Shown: positions 12,235-18,994 of the stretch, in pieces | Position numbering within the stretch: position 1 is the first letter of the stretch | How the letters are laid out: the number at the start of each line of letters is the position of its first letter | DNA from: Alcanivorax borkumensis SK2 | Lineage (GTDB): Bacteria; Pseudomonadota; Gammaproteobacteria; Pseudomonadales; Alcanivoracaceae | Length of the DNA stretch: 64,000 nt | Reading direction: 5' to 3' | NCBI RefSeq assembly: GCF_000009365.1 | Contig: NC_008260.1 | Coordinates: 779,501-843,500, forward strand | The notes under the pieces: generated by a model | What the model was told of the DNA's origin: nothing | Seen by the model: the letters and a program-made list of their open reading frames with translations, nothing else | Databases searched by the model: none | Made by a program: the position numbers and the translations under genes

Positions 12235-12342
12235 GCGGCTGCGAACGATCCTCTAATGGCAAGAAATCTGTAAGTTACTGATATAAAAAGAGGGCACGTT
12301 ACCGTCTAATGGCAAACGTGCCCTCTCTAATGGCAACTCACA
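12235..12342 (+). repeat. Orphan right end of an earlier related transposon
   Basis: From 12247 to 12342 this matches 14561-14656 base for base except one C/T difference. Similarity decays further left, to about 12235. It contains three CTAATGGCAA motifs (12253-12262, 12306-12315, 12327-12336), an internal 12-bp inverted repeat (12289-12300 / 12315-12326), and terminates ...CTCACA. No matching left end is visible between here and the peroxiredoxin, so the first element is a remnant or its left end has been lost. Confidence 0.75.
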
Positions 12343-12346
12343 CACT

Positions 12347-12440
12347 TGTGAGTTGCCATTAGAGGTATCACTCCACCTCTAGTAAAAACAATAACTTAGC
12401 GATTTCTTGCCATAGGTAAATCGCAGTTCTTGCCATAATA
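12347..12440 (+). repeat. Left end of the transposon with three transposase-binding-like motifs
   Basis: Inward from the tip: TTGCCATTAG (12353-12362), TTGCCATAG (12407-12415) and TTGCCATAA (12430-12438). The middle site extends to a roughly 27-bp match with the innermost site of the right end (TGGCAAGAAATC..TAAGTTATTG on the other strand). Spacing differs from the right end, as in Tn7. Together with the orphan end to its left it makes an 18-bp perfect hairpin (12325-12342 / 12347-12364). Confidence 0.75.
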
Positions 12441-12599
12441 AAAAGCACAGATCGCGCAACTACTTGAATTAGATAGCATAATTCAGAACTTCCAAAACGC
12501 TGAATAGCTGCGAATAGCACGCTTTGCTTGCGTATGAATATATAGTTTTCAGTATATTTATGGACTATAGCGCGCTTATCTGTGCCTATGGAAGAGTCG
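12441..12599. other. Non-coding interior of the transposon
   Basis: AT-rich DNA between the left end and the IS3-like remnant. I see no gene or clear RNA structure in it. Confidence 0.4.
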
Positions 12600-12795
12600 A
12601 AAGGAGAATTCAGAAATGGGGCCCAGTGAGTAAATTGGGCAATGCTCTGGCCTTGGGTAAAGTATAACCTTGATCTAGCACCAAGCGGGCTTGAACTCAG
12701 GAGTAAAGGAACGTCATTTCCTGGTCATCTGACACCTCGCTTAAGGTGATAATTTTACTACCTAAGTTGGTGTCCGGATTCATTAGATCACTACA
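12600..12795 (-). pseudogene. Decayed IS3-family 5' end with broken orfA
   Basis: Reading leftwards from 12795, TGTAGTGATCTAATGAATCC then GGACACC resembles an IS3-family terminus. After it, GAGGTG precedes an ATG (12728) that reads MTRK-stop-RSFTPEFK. That is the usual orfA start with an arginine codon turned into TGA (12714-12716). A shifted frame then reads LVLDQGYTLPKARALPNLL, again orfA-like, before homology is lost. The remnant starts one base after the NTPase stop codon. Family assignment comes from recognised peptide and end patterns, not a search. Confidence 0.55.
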
Positions 12796-12796
12796 C

Positions 12797-14500
12797 TTAT
12801 TGGCTTTCAGGGGGATCTGTATTGAGGCTGATTCCAAACCGTTTTGCTCGAAGTGCATTTAGTTTGCTCTCTTTTGCTATTCTGGTTAGAGCTTGGCGGG
12901 CATTTTGGGCTATCACTTTCTCGTTATCACCAATGTTAGCGATTCGCTCAAAGCGAAGGCAGGCTCGGATATAGCTTGGTAATTTCTCGCCTTTTGTTTT
13001 TTTAAAAATTTTGTAGTACTGCTCGGCCGTTGCCCGTGATAAAAGTATTATGTCTTCTCTTTTCCAAGCGTTGTTATTTACGAAAGTATCAAGGACTTGA
13101 TCTGGATCTCTGTCATCGTTGATTTTCTCGTGTTCCTCTTTGAATCTTTGAAGCAGGGTCTTGTCATTTACCCTTTCTGAAAAAGGGGTCGTGTCTAGAT
13201 CGAAGGTTTCTCTTTTGTCTTGAAATTCGGCTATGTATAGCTCGATGATTTCGTTGGCTTCTTTGTTGTAGCCAAGGTCTCTAAGTAAATCAACGGTTCC
13301 GTTAAGGTTTAATACGCTTATATGCTGGGGGTTCGTCTTAAAGCTGTTAAGTAAGGAGTCGATCAAATCTGATTCATTGTCTTCGAATGTGAAGTGATAT
13401 TTATTCCAGGCTTTTGATATTGAGGCTTCTGATTTTCGGGCTATAAATTTTTCGTTAATTTTTTCTGCTTCTTTTTTTAGGGTAGGCTTGTTGAAAACTC
13501 CCTTTTCAACAGCTTTGGCTATTTCAAGATCGAATGCATCTATATCTTTTAACGAGTAGCCTGACAGAAAGTCATTCCATGCGACTTCTTCTGCTGTCGC
13601 TTTGTCGTTCCCGATGCCCCAGAGTTTTCCGCCTATATTCTTTATGTAGTCGAATGGAGGAACGTCGGGGTTCCCTCCTTGGTAATATGAATATGAAAAT
13701 AATATTAAGCTGTGAAGCCCCTGATTTATTACCCCCGGTTCATAGTCGGAAAGTATTGAGGGAAGCTTTTCTGCTAGCCTGAGGATCTTTCTGATAATTC
13801 GTATGTTGTTTATGTTCAGTTTTGTTGTGAGTTCTGATATTTGTTCGCTGTTTGGTATGGATTCAGGTATGGCGATTTGGGCAGACTCTTTCGCTGAAGG
13901 GGAAAAAACGAGATCAATGTCGATAACCTTTTCTCGATATTTGTTAAGCTCGTTTTCTTCGTTATCACATAACGATTTGTTGTTTAATATCAAAACTATT
14001 TTGCAGTCTTTTTGTTCTTTGAGTAAAGAGACTAAGCCTAGTATGTCCTTTATTTTTAATGAATCACCTTTTCTTTCAATGTCATCAATGCAAATAAGTG
14101 TTTTTCTTAAAGATAGAAAGGATATGGCCTCAAAAACAGGGGAAAGGTCTTTGGCATAAGGGAGGCCTTGAATTGTGCGAACGGCCTTCCTTCCCAGTGA
14201 TTTACTGATTTTTTCCGTGCTTTTCCTGAAGGATTCTAGGCTTGGTTTATGGTTTATTTCCTTAACATCAACTACCTGTTCGAAAATTGAAAACTTAAAA
14301 TTTTCAAGTGAATTGATGCCAAACAAGGATACGTATGAGTAGTTGTCAAGTGAGACAGACTGTGATTCTGCGGCAGCAGTAAGAAAGGTATTCCAAGTAA
14401 AGGTTTTACCTACTCCCCAGTCTCCACGAATTGCCAGCACCTCGGGCGTGTCATCCGCCAAAAATTCTTGAATTTGTTCTTTTACTAATGCGATTGACAT
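12797..14500 (-). CDS. KAP/YobI-like P-loop NTPase, transposon cargo
   Basis: A 567-residue cytoplasmic protein with an N-terminal P-loop domain. Walker A is GDWGVGKT (residues 26-33), Walker B is LICIDDIER (135-143) and a sensor-like strand VLILNN lies at 169-174. These match KAP/YobI-type STAND-related NTPases. Residues about 200-567 are predominantly helical with no recognised effector domain and no obvious membrane segments. The gene is markedly richer in A/T and AT-ending codons than its neighbours, consistent with transfer. AGAGGAG precedes the ATG. KAP-type NTPases occur in several anti-phage systems, so a defence role is plausible but unproven, and no partner gene is present. Confidence 0.75.
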   Translation of the reverse strand: MSIALVKEQIQEFLADDTPEVLAIRGDWGVGKTFTWNTFLTAAAESQSVSLDNYSYVSLFGINSLENFKFSIFEQVVDVKEINHKPSLESFRKSTEKISKSLGRKAVRTIQGLPYAKDLSPVFEAISFLSLRKTLICIDDIERKGDSLKIKDILGLVSLLKEQKDCKIVLILNNKSLCDNEENELNKYREKVIDIDLVFSPSAKESAQIAIPESIPNSEQISELTTKLNINNIRIIRKILRLAEKLPSILSDYEPGVINQGLHSLILFSYSYYQGGNPDVPPFDYIKNIGGKLWGIGNDKATAEEVAWNDFLSGYSLKDIDAFDLEIAKAVEKGVFNKPTLKKEAEKINEKFIARKSEASISKAWNKYHFTFEDNESDLIDSLLNSFKTNPQHISVLNLNGTVDLLRDLGYNKEANEIIELYIAEFQDKRETFDLDTTPFSERVNDKTLLQRFKEEHEKINDDRDPDQVLDTFVNNNAWKREDIILLSRATAEQYYKIFKKTKGEKLPSYIRACLRFERIANIGDNEKVIAQNARQALTRIAKESKLNALRAKRFGISLNTDPPESQ

Positions 14501-14560
14501 TTGCGGCTCCTCTTTTCACTGGCTGGATGTTGAGGCGAAGGGTGGTGCGAGGCTGCTAAA

Positions 14561-14656
14561 GATCCTCTAATGGCAAGAAATCTGTAAGTTATTGATATAA
14601 AAAGAGGGCACGTTACCGTCTAATGGCAAACGTGCCCTCTCTAATGGCAACTCACA
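14561..14656 (+). repeat. Right end of the transposon, nrdB-proximal
   Basis: CTAATGGCAA motifs at 14567-14576, 14620-14629 and 14641-14650, ending CTCACA at 14656. It contains an inverted repeat of 12 bp (AGAGGGCACGTT / AACGTGCCCTCT). One base differs from the orphan copy at 12247-12342. The ACACT target repeat follows at 14657-14661. Confidence 0.8.
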
Positions 14657-14668
14657 ACACTCACACTG

Positions 14669-15961
14669 TTATTCCCAGGAGAGTGCGCCGCCCACCTGGT
14701 ATTCGGTGACCCGGGTTTCGAAGAAGTTTTTCTCTTTACGCAGGTCCATGATTTCGCTCATCCACGGGAACGGGTTGTTCACGCCTTTGAACTGTTCTGG
14801 CAGGCCCAGTTGGGCCAGGCGGCGGTTGGCGATGAACTGCAGGTATTCTTCCATCATCGCGGCATTCATGCCGAGTACTCCGCGTGGCATTGTGTCGCGG
14901 GCGTATTGAATTTCCAGTTCGGTGCCTTCCAGAATCATCTGGGTGGCTTTGTCGCGCATCTGGGCATCCCATAGATGTGGGTTTTCCAGTTTGATCTGGT
15001 TGATCACGTCGATGCCGAAGTTCACGTGCATGGATTCGTCACGAAGGATGTATTGAAACTGTTCGGCCACGCCGGTCATTTTGTTGCGGCGACCCATGGA
15101 CAGAATTTGGGTGAAGCCGCAGTAGAAGAAGATGCCTTCCAGTACGCAGTAGAACGCGATCAGGTTTTCCAGCAGTGCTTTGTCGGTTTCCGGGGTGCCG
15201 GTAGTGAACTCCGGGTCGGATAGGTCTCGGGTATACTGGATGCCCCACTGGGCCTTCTTGGCTACGGACGGAATCTCCTGGTACATGTTGAAGATTTCGC
15301 CTTCATCCATGCCCAGTGATTCGATGCAGTACTGGTAAGCGTGGGTGTGGATGGCTTCTTCAAAAGACTGACGCAGGATGTACTGGCGACATTCTGGATT
15401 GGTGATTAGGCGGTAGATGGCCAGCACCAAGTTGTTGGCCACCAGGGAGTCGGCAGTGGCAAAGAAACCCAGGTTACGCTTGACGATGCGACGCTCGTCG
15501 TCGGTGAGGCCGTCGGCCTTTTTCCACAACGCCAGGTCGGCGTTCATGTTCACTTCCTGAGGCATCCAGTGGTTGGCGCAGCCATCCAAGTATTTCTGCC
15601 AGGCCCAGTCATATTTGAAGGGAACTAATTGGTTCAGGTCGGCGCGGCAGTTGATCATGCGCTTGTCGTCAACTTCTACGCGGCCAGCGGCCCCTTCCAG
15701 TTCGGCAACGCCGTCTTCTATGTCCATCTTTGCCACGGAGGCCTGGGCGCGGGCTACCGCGTCTGAGGCGGCTCGGGCGGCGGCGGTGTTGTCTCGTCGC
15801 TGCTGCTCGATTCCATCATCCGCAGTACTTCCCGTTCCCGGTGCTTTAGCTTCAGGTGACGCTTGGTCAGATACCGCCTTAGGTTCCGGCGGCGTTGCGG
15901 GTGTGGGCTGCGGTTTGGCGACAGGCGTCTCTTGCGCATTGAATTCGTCCCAGCTCAGCAT
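14669..15961 (-). CDS. nrdB: Ribonucleotide reductase class Ia, beta subunit
   Basis: A 430-residue R2 protein that houses the di-iron/tyrosyl-radical cofactor for dNTP synthesis with NrdA. The carboxylate/histidine ligands lie in the [13 protein letters not shown] helix (EExxH with the radical tyrosine four residues on), CVLEGIFFY and [11 protein letters not shown]. The C-terminal tail ends GGALSWE, the peptide that docks on NrdA. Residues 1 to about 85 form a Pro/Ala/Gln-rich extension absent from the shorter enterobacterial protein but usual in pseudomonad-type NrdB. GGAGAG precedes the ATG at 15961; the upstream open frame is not needed. It follows nrdA on the same strand. A transposon end lies 12 bp past its stop. 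Confidence 0.95.
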
Positions 15962-16105
15962 GTGTTCTCTCCATATTCCATTACAAGTTTGGTGGTGTTG
16001 ATTCACCGCTTGCGTATTCTTTATGCCAGCGTGCACGCTTCACGTTTCATGTGGGTACGCAGGAAAATGCGTGCTGCATGGCGCGTGATAGCGTGCGAGC
16101 GTCTC
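15962..16105. other. nrdA-nrdB intergenic spacer with small dyads
   Basis: 144 bp containing several GCGTGC/GCACGC words and short dyads such as ACGCA...TGCGT (about 16055-16070). It probably serves as mRNA spacer or partial terminator and resembles the GCGTGC-rich spacers at 5773 and 27352. Confidence 0.35.

Positions 16106-18994
<2,889 letters not shown>

Follow-up and report, generated by a model that had tools for sequence, protein, structure and literature searches.

Tn7 lands in the terminator of glmS, and the attachment genes of Tn7-like transposons include glmS and yhiN. Transposons of the Tn5053/Tn402 type are defined by tniA, tniB, tniQ and tniR together with a res site, and mobile insertion cassettes consist of inverted repeats that enclose passenger genes but no transposase. 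Here we describe an element beside nrdB, the gene for the ribonucleotide reductase small chain, in a 64,000-nucleotide stretch of the Alcanivorax borkumensis SK2 genome (the window, i.e., bases 779,501–843,500 of the complete genome of 3,120,143 bp). We read this element, with a probability of about 60%, as a non-autonomous cargo cassette with Tn7-like (TnsB-class) ends that uses nrdB as attachment site and would be moved by a helper in trans. For Tn7-like transposons, site arrays, a fixed insertion distance and defence cargo have been described, with comM among the attachment genes (PMC8649781). The large survey of Tn7-like cargo took the transposase gene as its starting point (PMC8649781), and families that consist of ends plus cargo only would hence be invisible to it.

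The element and its surroundings comprise the following features.

12347–14656, no strand: complete element, 2,310 bp, delimited by tips, duplication and length
12347–12364, plus strand: left tip, 18-bp perfect inverted repeat
14639–14656, minus strand: right tip, 18-bp perfect inverted repeat
12342–12346, no strand: left copy of the 5-bp duplication (ACACT), its first base common to the second right end R1 (see below)
14657–14661, no strand: right copy of the 5-bp duplication (ACACT)
12353–12440, plus strand: left array of three putative transposase-binding sites, starts 12353, 12407 and 12430
14566–14650, minus strand: right array of three putative transposase-binding sites, minus-strand starts 14650, 14629 and 14576
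14669–16036, minus strand: nrdB, Pfam Ribonuc_red_sm on 14669–15973, start codon putative

The tips are inverted-identical at 18/18 positions. It is the right end that faces nrdB, its tip 12 nt from the stop codon of this gene. Sites resembling TTGCCATTAGA were found at tip offsets of 7, 61 and 84 at the left end and 7, 28 and 81 at the right end. Hence, the 2,310-bp element with 18-bp tips, ACACT on both sides and these offsets was confirmed as the original prediction had it; its three motifs per end are all present, although the inner two on the left are weaker (two to three mismatches to TTGCCATTAGA). The longest perfect inverted repeat in the region measures 19 bp, i.e., the 18-bp tips plus one duplication base that pairs by chance, and an inverted repeat of at least 18 bp occurred in 0/500 first-order Markov resamples (resample maximum 15). 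TTGCCATTAG has eight copies in the window versus a resampled mean of 0.13; one of these, at 18828, is isolated inside another gene. Generic scattered repeats had been named beforehand as the finding that would speak against an element. Within the window's own genome, however, the right end matches this locus only, and given also the resamples and the distribution among genomes reported below, chance or scattered repeats are practically out of the question.

Two further features lie inside the element.

12797–14500, minus strand: cargo gene, 567-aa P-loop NTPase, KAP-like, PADLOC PDC-S49 candidate
12662–12795, minus strand: decayed fragment, presumably of IS3-type OrfA, with a counterpart in the A. 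jadensis T9 element

According to the list of open reading frames (ORFs), the NTPase gene is the only long ORF filling the element. The protein matched PDC-S49 over residues 24–436 (E 1.2e-23) and KAP barely above the cut-off (20.7 versus 20 bits). A sequence-profile search of the PDB gave no match, and a fold search of the PDB returned generic AAA+ matches confined to residues 1–283. The NTPase probably acts in defence. The claim of a single NTPase cargo without transposase was thus upheld, and its candidate-defence label is backed by the PDC-S49 match. Very improbably, the NTPase would be no passenger at all and would instead be a TnsC/MuB-like transposition factor of the element: ORC/Cdc6 chains tied or ranked higher in the fold search, where RdrA was also listed, the profile scan of the NTPase gave no TniB, TniQ or Mu-transpos_C match, the protein matches PDC-S49, and no protein of its kind was among those scanned in other elements. 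As a side observation, the fragment 12662–12795 has four similar stretches elsewhere in the window's genome.

The element resembles a Tn7-type cassette in its workings, but the core genes tnsB, tnsC and tniQ/tnsD are absent from it, and it is therefore not a Tn7-like transposon in the strict sense. ORF list and profile scan likewise gave none of the Tn5053/Tn402 gene set inside it (a res site was not searched for); nothing beyond the ends supports the Tn5053 type that had been proposed. A passenger between inverted repeats without a transposase, as in mobile insertion cassettes, is what the element does contain.

Relatives of the ends were found beside nrdB in other genomes, for which we use handles (G000 is the window's genome, G002 A. 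jadensis T9, G007 Alcanivorax sp. DG881 and G013 a metagenome-assembled genome, MAG). We found ten right ends of the family in nine genomes of two bacterial families, R1 included. Nine of the ten lie 9–13 nt behind the nrdB stop, and all nine face nrdB, i.e., insertion is oriented and at a nearly fixed distance from an attachment gene, as in Tn7-like transposons. The distance is 9 nt in G005, 10 nt in G007, 11 nt in G002, G138 and R1 (here before the second insertion), 12 nt in G000, G006 and G288, and 13 nt in G013. The spacing of the three putative sites is kept in the six closest right ends (G000, R1, G002, G006, G007 and G013), and that of the left end in G000 and G002; in the G005 left end, only the first and third sites were found within three mismatches. 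Each end of the element carries an array of three putative sites with conserved spacing. The predicted TnsB-class architecture and the insertion with a 5-bp duplication are supported, and relatives' ends keep the same spacing.

The gene nrdB was present in 17/17 genomes of the genus. Five of these matched in the right-end search (G000, G002, G006, G007 and G013), all hits being beside nrdB, and four in the left-end search (G000, G002 and G005, and G007 via its right end); the G006 left end was recognised by direct comparison and profile. G005 has a divergent right end behind nrdB; its left end is on a different contig, next to an nrdB-type hairpin. By eye, a GC-rich hairpin with a T-run soon follows the nrdB stop in nine of the 11 other genus genomes, which are without the element (G001, G004, G008, G010, G011, G012, G014, G015 and G016); G009 has a different insert within this hairpin, and G003 a different sequence there. 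The left ends of G002, G005 and G006 abut the GC hairpin that directly follows nrdB in most element-free genomes of the genus.

For wider searches we built two covariance models, the first from six right ends and the second from nine, including those of G288 and G358. The six-end model matched 4/390 genomes of the order (G000, G002, G288 and G358). The nine-end model matched 2/21 genomes in the family of G358 and, at E ≤ 0.01, 6/390 genomes of the order, adding weak matches in G068 and G138, neither of which matched at E ≤ 0.001. The exact 18-bp tip occurred in six stretches of genome_contigs, three of them of the family (DG881, A. jadensis T9 and the G013 MAG); those in Bacteroidales, Erythrobacter and Lachnospiraceae had a single site each and were taken as chance. 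This collection does not cover every relative, because G006 has the exact tip and is not among the six. There were no matches of the exact tip in viral_contigs, of the right end in plasmids, of the whole element in phages, or in Rfam. A pattern of nrdB end plus TGTG matched 16/390 genomes of the order; besides G000, reading the matches of 11 of the other 15 genomes (all but G029, G159, G265 and G318) revealed no end of this kind. A two-site pattern matched 27/369 genomes of the class, and of the returned loci that were read, that of G000 alone resembled an end.

The cargo differs in every element, i.e., Mrr nuclease, toxin-antitoxin-SecB-like, HipA, Dnd, DUF3800 and others without match. G002 carries an Mrr-type nuclease and an endonuclease/exonuclease/phosphatase protein, G006 two ORFs without Pfam or NCBIfam match, and G013 Gp49-like, HTH and SecB-like genes, in what we take to be the order of a toxin-antitoxin-chaperone set. 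G005 encodes a DUF3800 protein, and next to its left end there is a gene whose product matches RWP-RK below threshold; G007 retains the right end only. In G288, the left end follows 4.1 kb on from the right end, with HipA, HTH and Mrr_cat genes between. The G138 right end is followed by DndF-like (57 residues scanned) and DndBCDE genes, and no left end was seen before the contig ends. In G068, the nrdB stop and a left end lie about 9 kb apart, separated by HipA_C, AbiEi/AbiEii and SIR2-nSTAND genes (region L125 11697–19900, L130 1–885), and no right end was recognised. The stretch directly behind the nrdB stop of G068 resembles one beyond the G288 left end; it may be a further type of end. Cargo runs in the same direction as nrdB in G000, G005, G013 and for most genes of G288, and in the opposite direction in G002 and G006.

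Directly to the left of the element we found a second right end.

12247–12342, minus strand: R1, right end of an older family member, 99% over 96 bp

The 106 bp left of the element (12237–12342) repeat its right end in direct orientation with 97% identity. Starting from nrdB, one passes 12 nt, the right end, the cargo, the left end and a further 4 nt before reaching R1. The duplication, AGTGT in the reading direction of nrdB (ACACT on the plus strand), overlaps R1 by one base: R1 spans 12247–12342, and the first base of the left ACACT is hence its last base. The left flank is therefore not plain chromosome as originally assumed, and the expected pre-insertion sequence reads ...CTCACACACTCACACTG instead of ...CTCACACTCACACTG. 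R1 resembles the solo right end of DG881 over 212 bp (90%), to about 12131. Because the similarity extends this far, R1 would most simply be an old insertion inherited by the lines of the window and of DG881, and the complete element would have arrived later, in the window's line alone. The movement that had been called recent may be so only in relative terms, given a perfect duplication and the absence of the element at the DG881 site. The original prediction had included neither the second right end in tandem nor nrdB as attachment site, nor relatives that carry other cargo.

Four elements at nrdB have both ends on one contig, and two of these have perfect 5-bp duplications next to their TGT tips, G000 and, with the different letters ATAAA, G006. 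In G013, one contig of the pair C213/C67 (L017, L037) has a filled junction, and the other is uninterrupted with AACAG at the matching place. A few bases nearby differ between these contigs, and the assembly has 4% contamination; the filled and uninterrupted nrdB regions possibly represent two strains. Tips, arrays and variable target letters fit a TnsB-class DDE transposase better than a site-specific recombinase. One preferred site with variable cargo would also be expected if a tyrosine or serine recombinase integrated the cassettes at nrdB. We consider this hardly credible, as a DDE transposase would account for duplications with differing letters (AGTGT, ATAAA), for TGT tips and for site arrays, and no recombinase gene was recognised inside the elements. 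G000 and G002 have about 460 bp of left end and 96 bp of right end in common, with unrelated cargo in between. This agrees with our main reading, but it would also suit an exchange of cargo without transposition, in which shared ends and the nrdB flank recombine homologously, and so would the lack of duplications in G002 and G288. Such an exchange may act in addition to transposition; as the sole explanation it is improbable, in view of the perfect duplications of different letters in G000 and G006 and of R1, which G000 retains beside the new copy.

The right end itself contains a hairpin.

14601–14642, minus strand: hairpin in the right end, then T-rich stretch away from nrdB, putative substitute terminator, fold z −6.2

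Right ends folded better than nearly all of their shuffles in 8/9 cases (z −2.8 to −7.1; G138 was not folded), the exception being G005 (z −1.25). A T-rich stretch follows the stem, away from nrdB, in G000, R1, G002 and G007 and is short in G006. The hairpin was not listed by the terminator scan, perhaps because its T's pair within the stem. Two right-end alignments showed both-sided changes at one and two pairs, respectively. In some copies, the hairpin may replace the displaced nrdB terminator.

In the mechanism that we propose, the helper in trans would provide a TnsB-type transposase, a TnsC-type regulator and a TnsD/TniQ-type selector. The selector would read the conserved 3' end of nrdB and thereby place the cassette at a fixed distance from the gene. 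Insertions would land between nrdB and its terminator, for which the right-end hairpin would substitute. In its widest form, our proposal is that the nrdB 3' end is an undescribed Tn7-type attachment site for dispersed, helper-dependent, transposase-less cassettes with exchangeable cargo, mostly for defence, whose right end doubles as terminator of the essential nrdAB operon and makes insertion harmless; this we put forward tentatively, at somewhat less than even odds.

Several observations weigh against this reading. The right end of G358 is not at nrdB; its neighbours are Vsr, cytosine methylase and MvaI/BcnI-type genes, and a left-like tip at 3.85 kb distance lacks a matching duplication and inner sites. 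The elements of G002 and G288 have no duplication. R1 keeps all three sites although the complete element directly adjoins it, and Tn7-type target immunity should disfavour insertion beside an existing end. As to the terminator, G013 has no T-run after the right-end stem, and the covariation of the hairpin is not beyond shuffles, 75/500 and 175/500 of which reach the observed pairing; since cargo runs against nrdB in G002 and G006, shielding of cargo is not the general reason for a terminator either. Finally, no helper operon with the family's ends was found in any locus examined.

The window's genome gave no TniQ and no Mu-transpos_C match. Among 46 genomes of the bacterial family, PF09299 matched three and PF06527 four; of the six Alcanivorax genomes with elements, only G002 had a TniQ match (the search did not take in G068, G138, G288 and G358). 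Mu-transpos_C is not a safe test, because it missed a 717-aa protein that occupies the TnsB position in a G008 operon, and TniQ did find this operon. Candidate loci were TnsAB/TnsC/TniQ in G002, TniQ beside a TniB-like piece in G012, and two TniA/TniB/TniQ-like sets plus a TnsABCD-like operon in G008. No family end was found at the loci of G002, G012, G008 and G042 by ORF lists, partly sequence, and by site-cluster and right-end profile scans. No transposase was recognised among the ORFs listed between relatives' ends, not all of which were library-scanned; G013, G005 and G138 reach contig ends. We infer the helper, the movement in trans and the defence function; mobilisation in trans, which the original prediction had regarded as a must, has this standing because no full-length relative with tnsAB or tniABQ genes and these ends was found.

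In G002 (L051 7842–12698), TnsAB-fusion-like, TnsC-like and TniQ genes are followed by a small ORF, near a presumably comF-like gene; the ends of this operon were not found. Contig C67 of G008 (L054 4941–11291) is short and carries two similar TniA-, TniB- and TniQ-like sets in succession. On contig C59 of G008 (L053 1–6167), a TnsABCD-like operon lies just behind what we take to be a flavoprotein-like gene, with three AATAAAGTTTGTAC-like sites between this gene and tnsA, i.e., a full Tn7-like element of the same genus with other ends.

The missing helper bears also on another possible history, in which full Tn7-like transposons carried their own tns genes to nrdB and then decayed, losing these genes by internal deletion, so that the small elements would not move in trans. 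The solo right ends R1 and G007, the IS-like fragment inside the G000 and G002 elements and the missing duplications of G002 and G288 fit such decay. In contrast, both ends and a perfect duplication are still present in G000 and G006, whose elements measure just 2.3 and 1.9 kb, no copy with even a remnant of a tns gene was recognised, and both ends are kept while the cargo differs. We therefore regard decay as unlikely and prefer cassettes moved in trans.

No nrdB attachment site for Tn7-like elements was found in our searches of an open-access library, including the topics of defence islands with ribonucleotide reductase and of non-autonomous elements, and no listed title on Alcanivorax and Tn7 concerned such an element. 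The main texts of PMC10293859 and PMC8649781 contain no word beginning with "nrd". A family that can be traced by its ends and one gene, nrdB, offers a simple means of gathering defence-like cargo in marine Pseudomonadales. It also allows one to ask whether cassettes are moved in trans, and to test in what way site-specific elements spare the operon next to their landing site.

Compared with known systems, the family shares with Tn7 and Tn7-like transposons the TGT tips, the 5-bp duplication, the site arrays at both ends, the variable cargo including defence genes and a right end toward the attachment gene at near-constant distance. It differs in that tnsA, tnsB, tnsC and tniQ/tnsD are absent inside, that the attachment gene is nrdB and that, unlike Tn7-like transposons, the element is only 2.3 kb long (1.9–4.1 kb in three complete relatives measured); an autonomous element with the family's ends was not found in the limited sample searched. 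In the Tn7-like TnsABCD element on G008 C59, the site array likewise follows closely on a stop codon, that of the flavoprotein-like gene, but this element encodes members of the TnsA, TnsC and TnsD families, with the 717-aa protein at the place of TnsB, and its site sequence is another. The cargo resembles PDC-S49 proteins by its NTPase profile match and differs in that the KAP match is only marginal; its defence role is a prediction. With mobile insertion cassettes, finally, the family has inverted repeats around passenger genes only in common, whereas here TnsB-class arrays and a fixed attachment gene take the place of the ends of a known insertion sequence.
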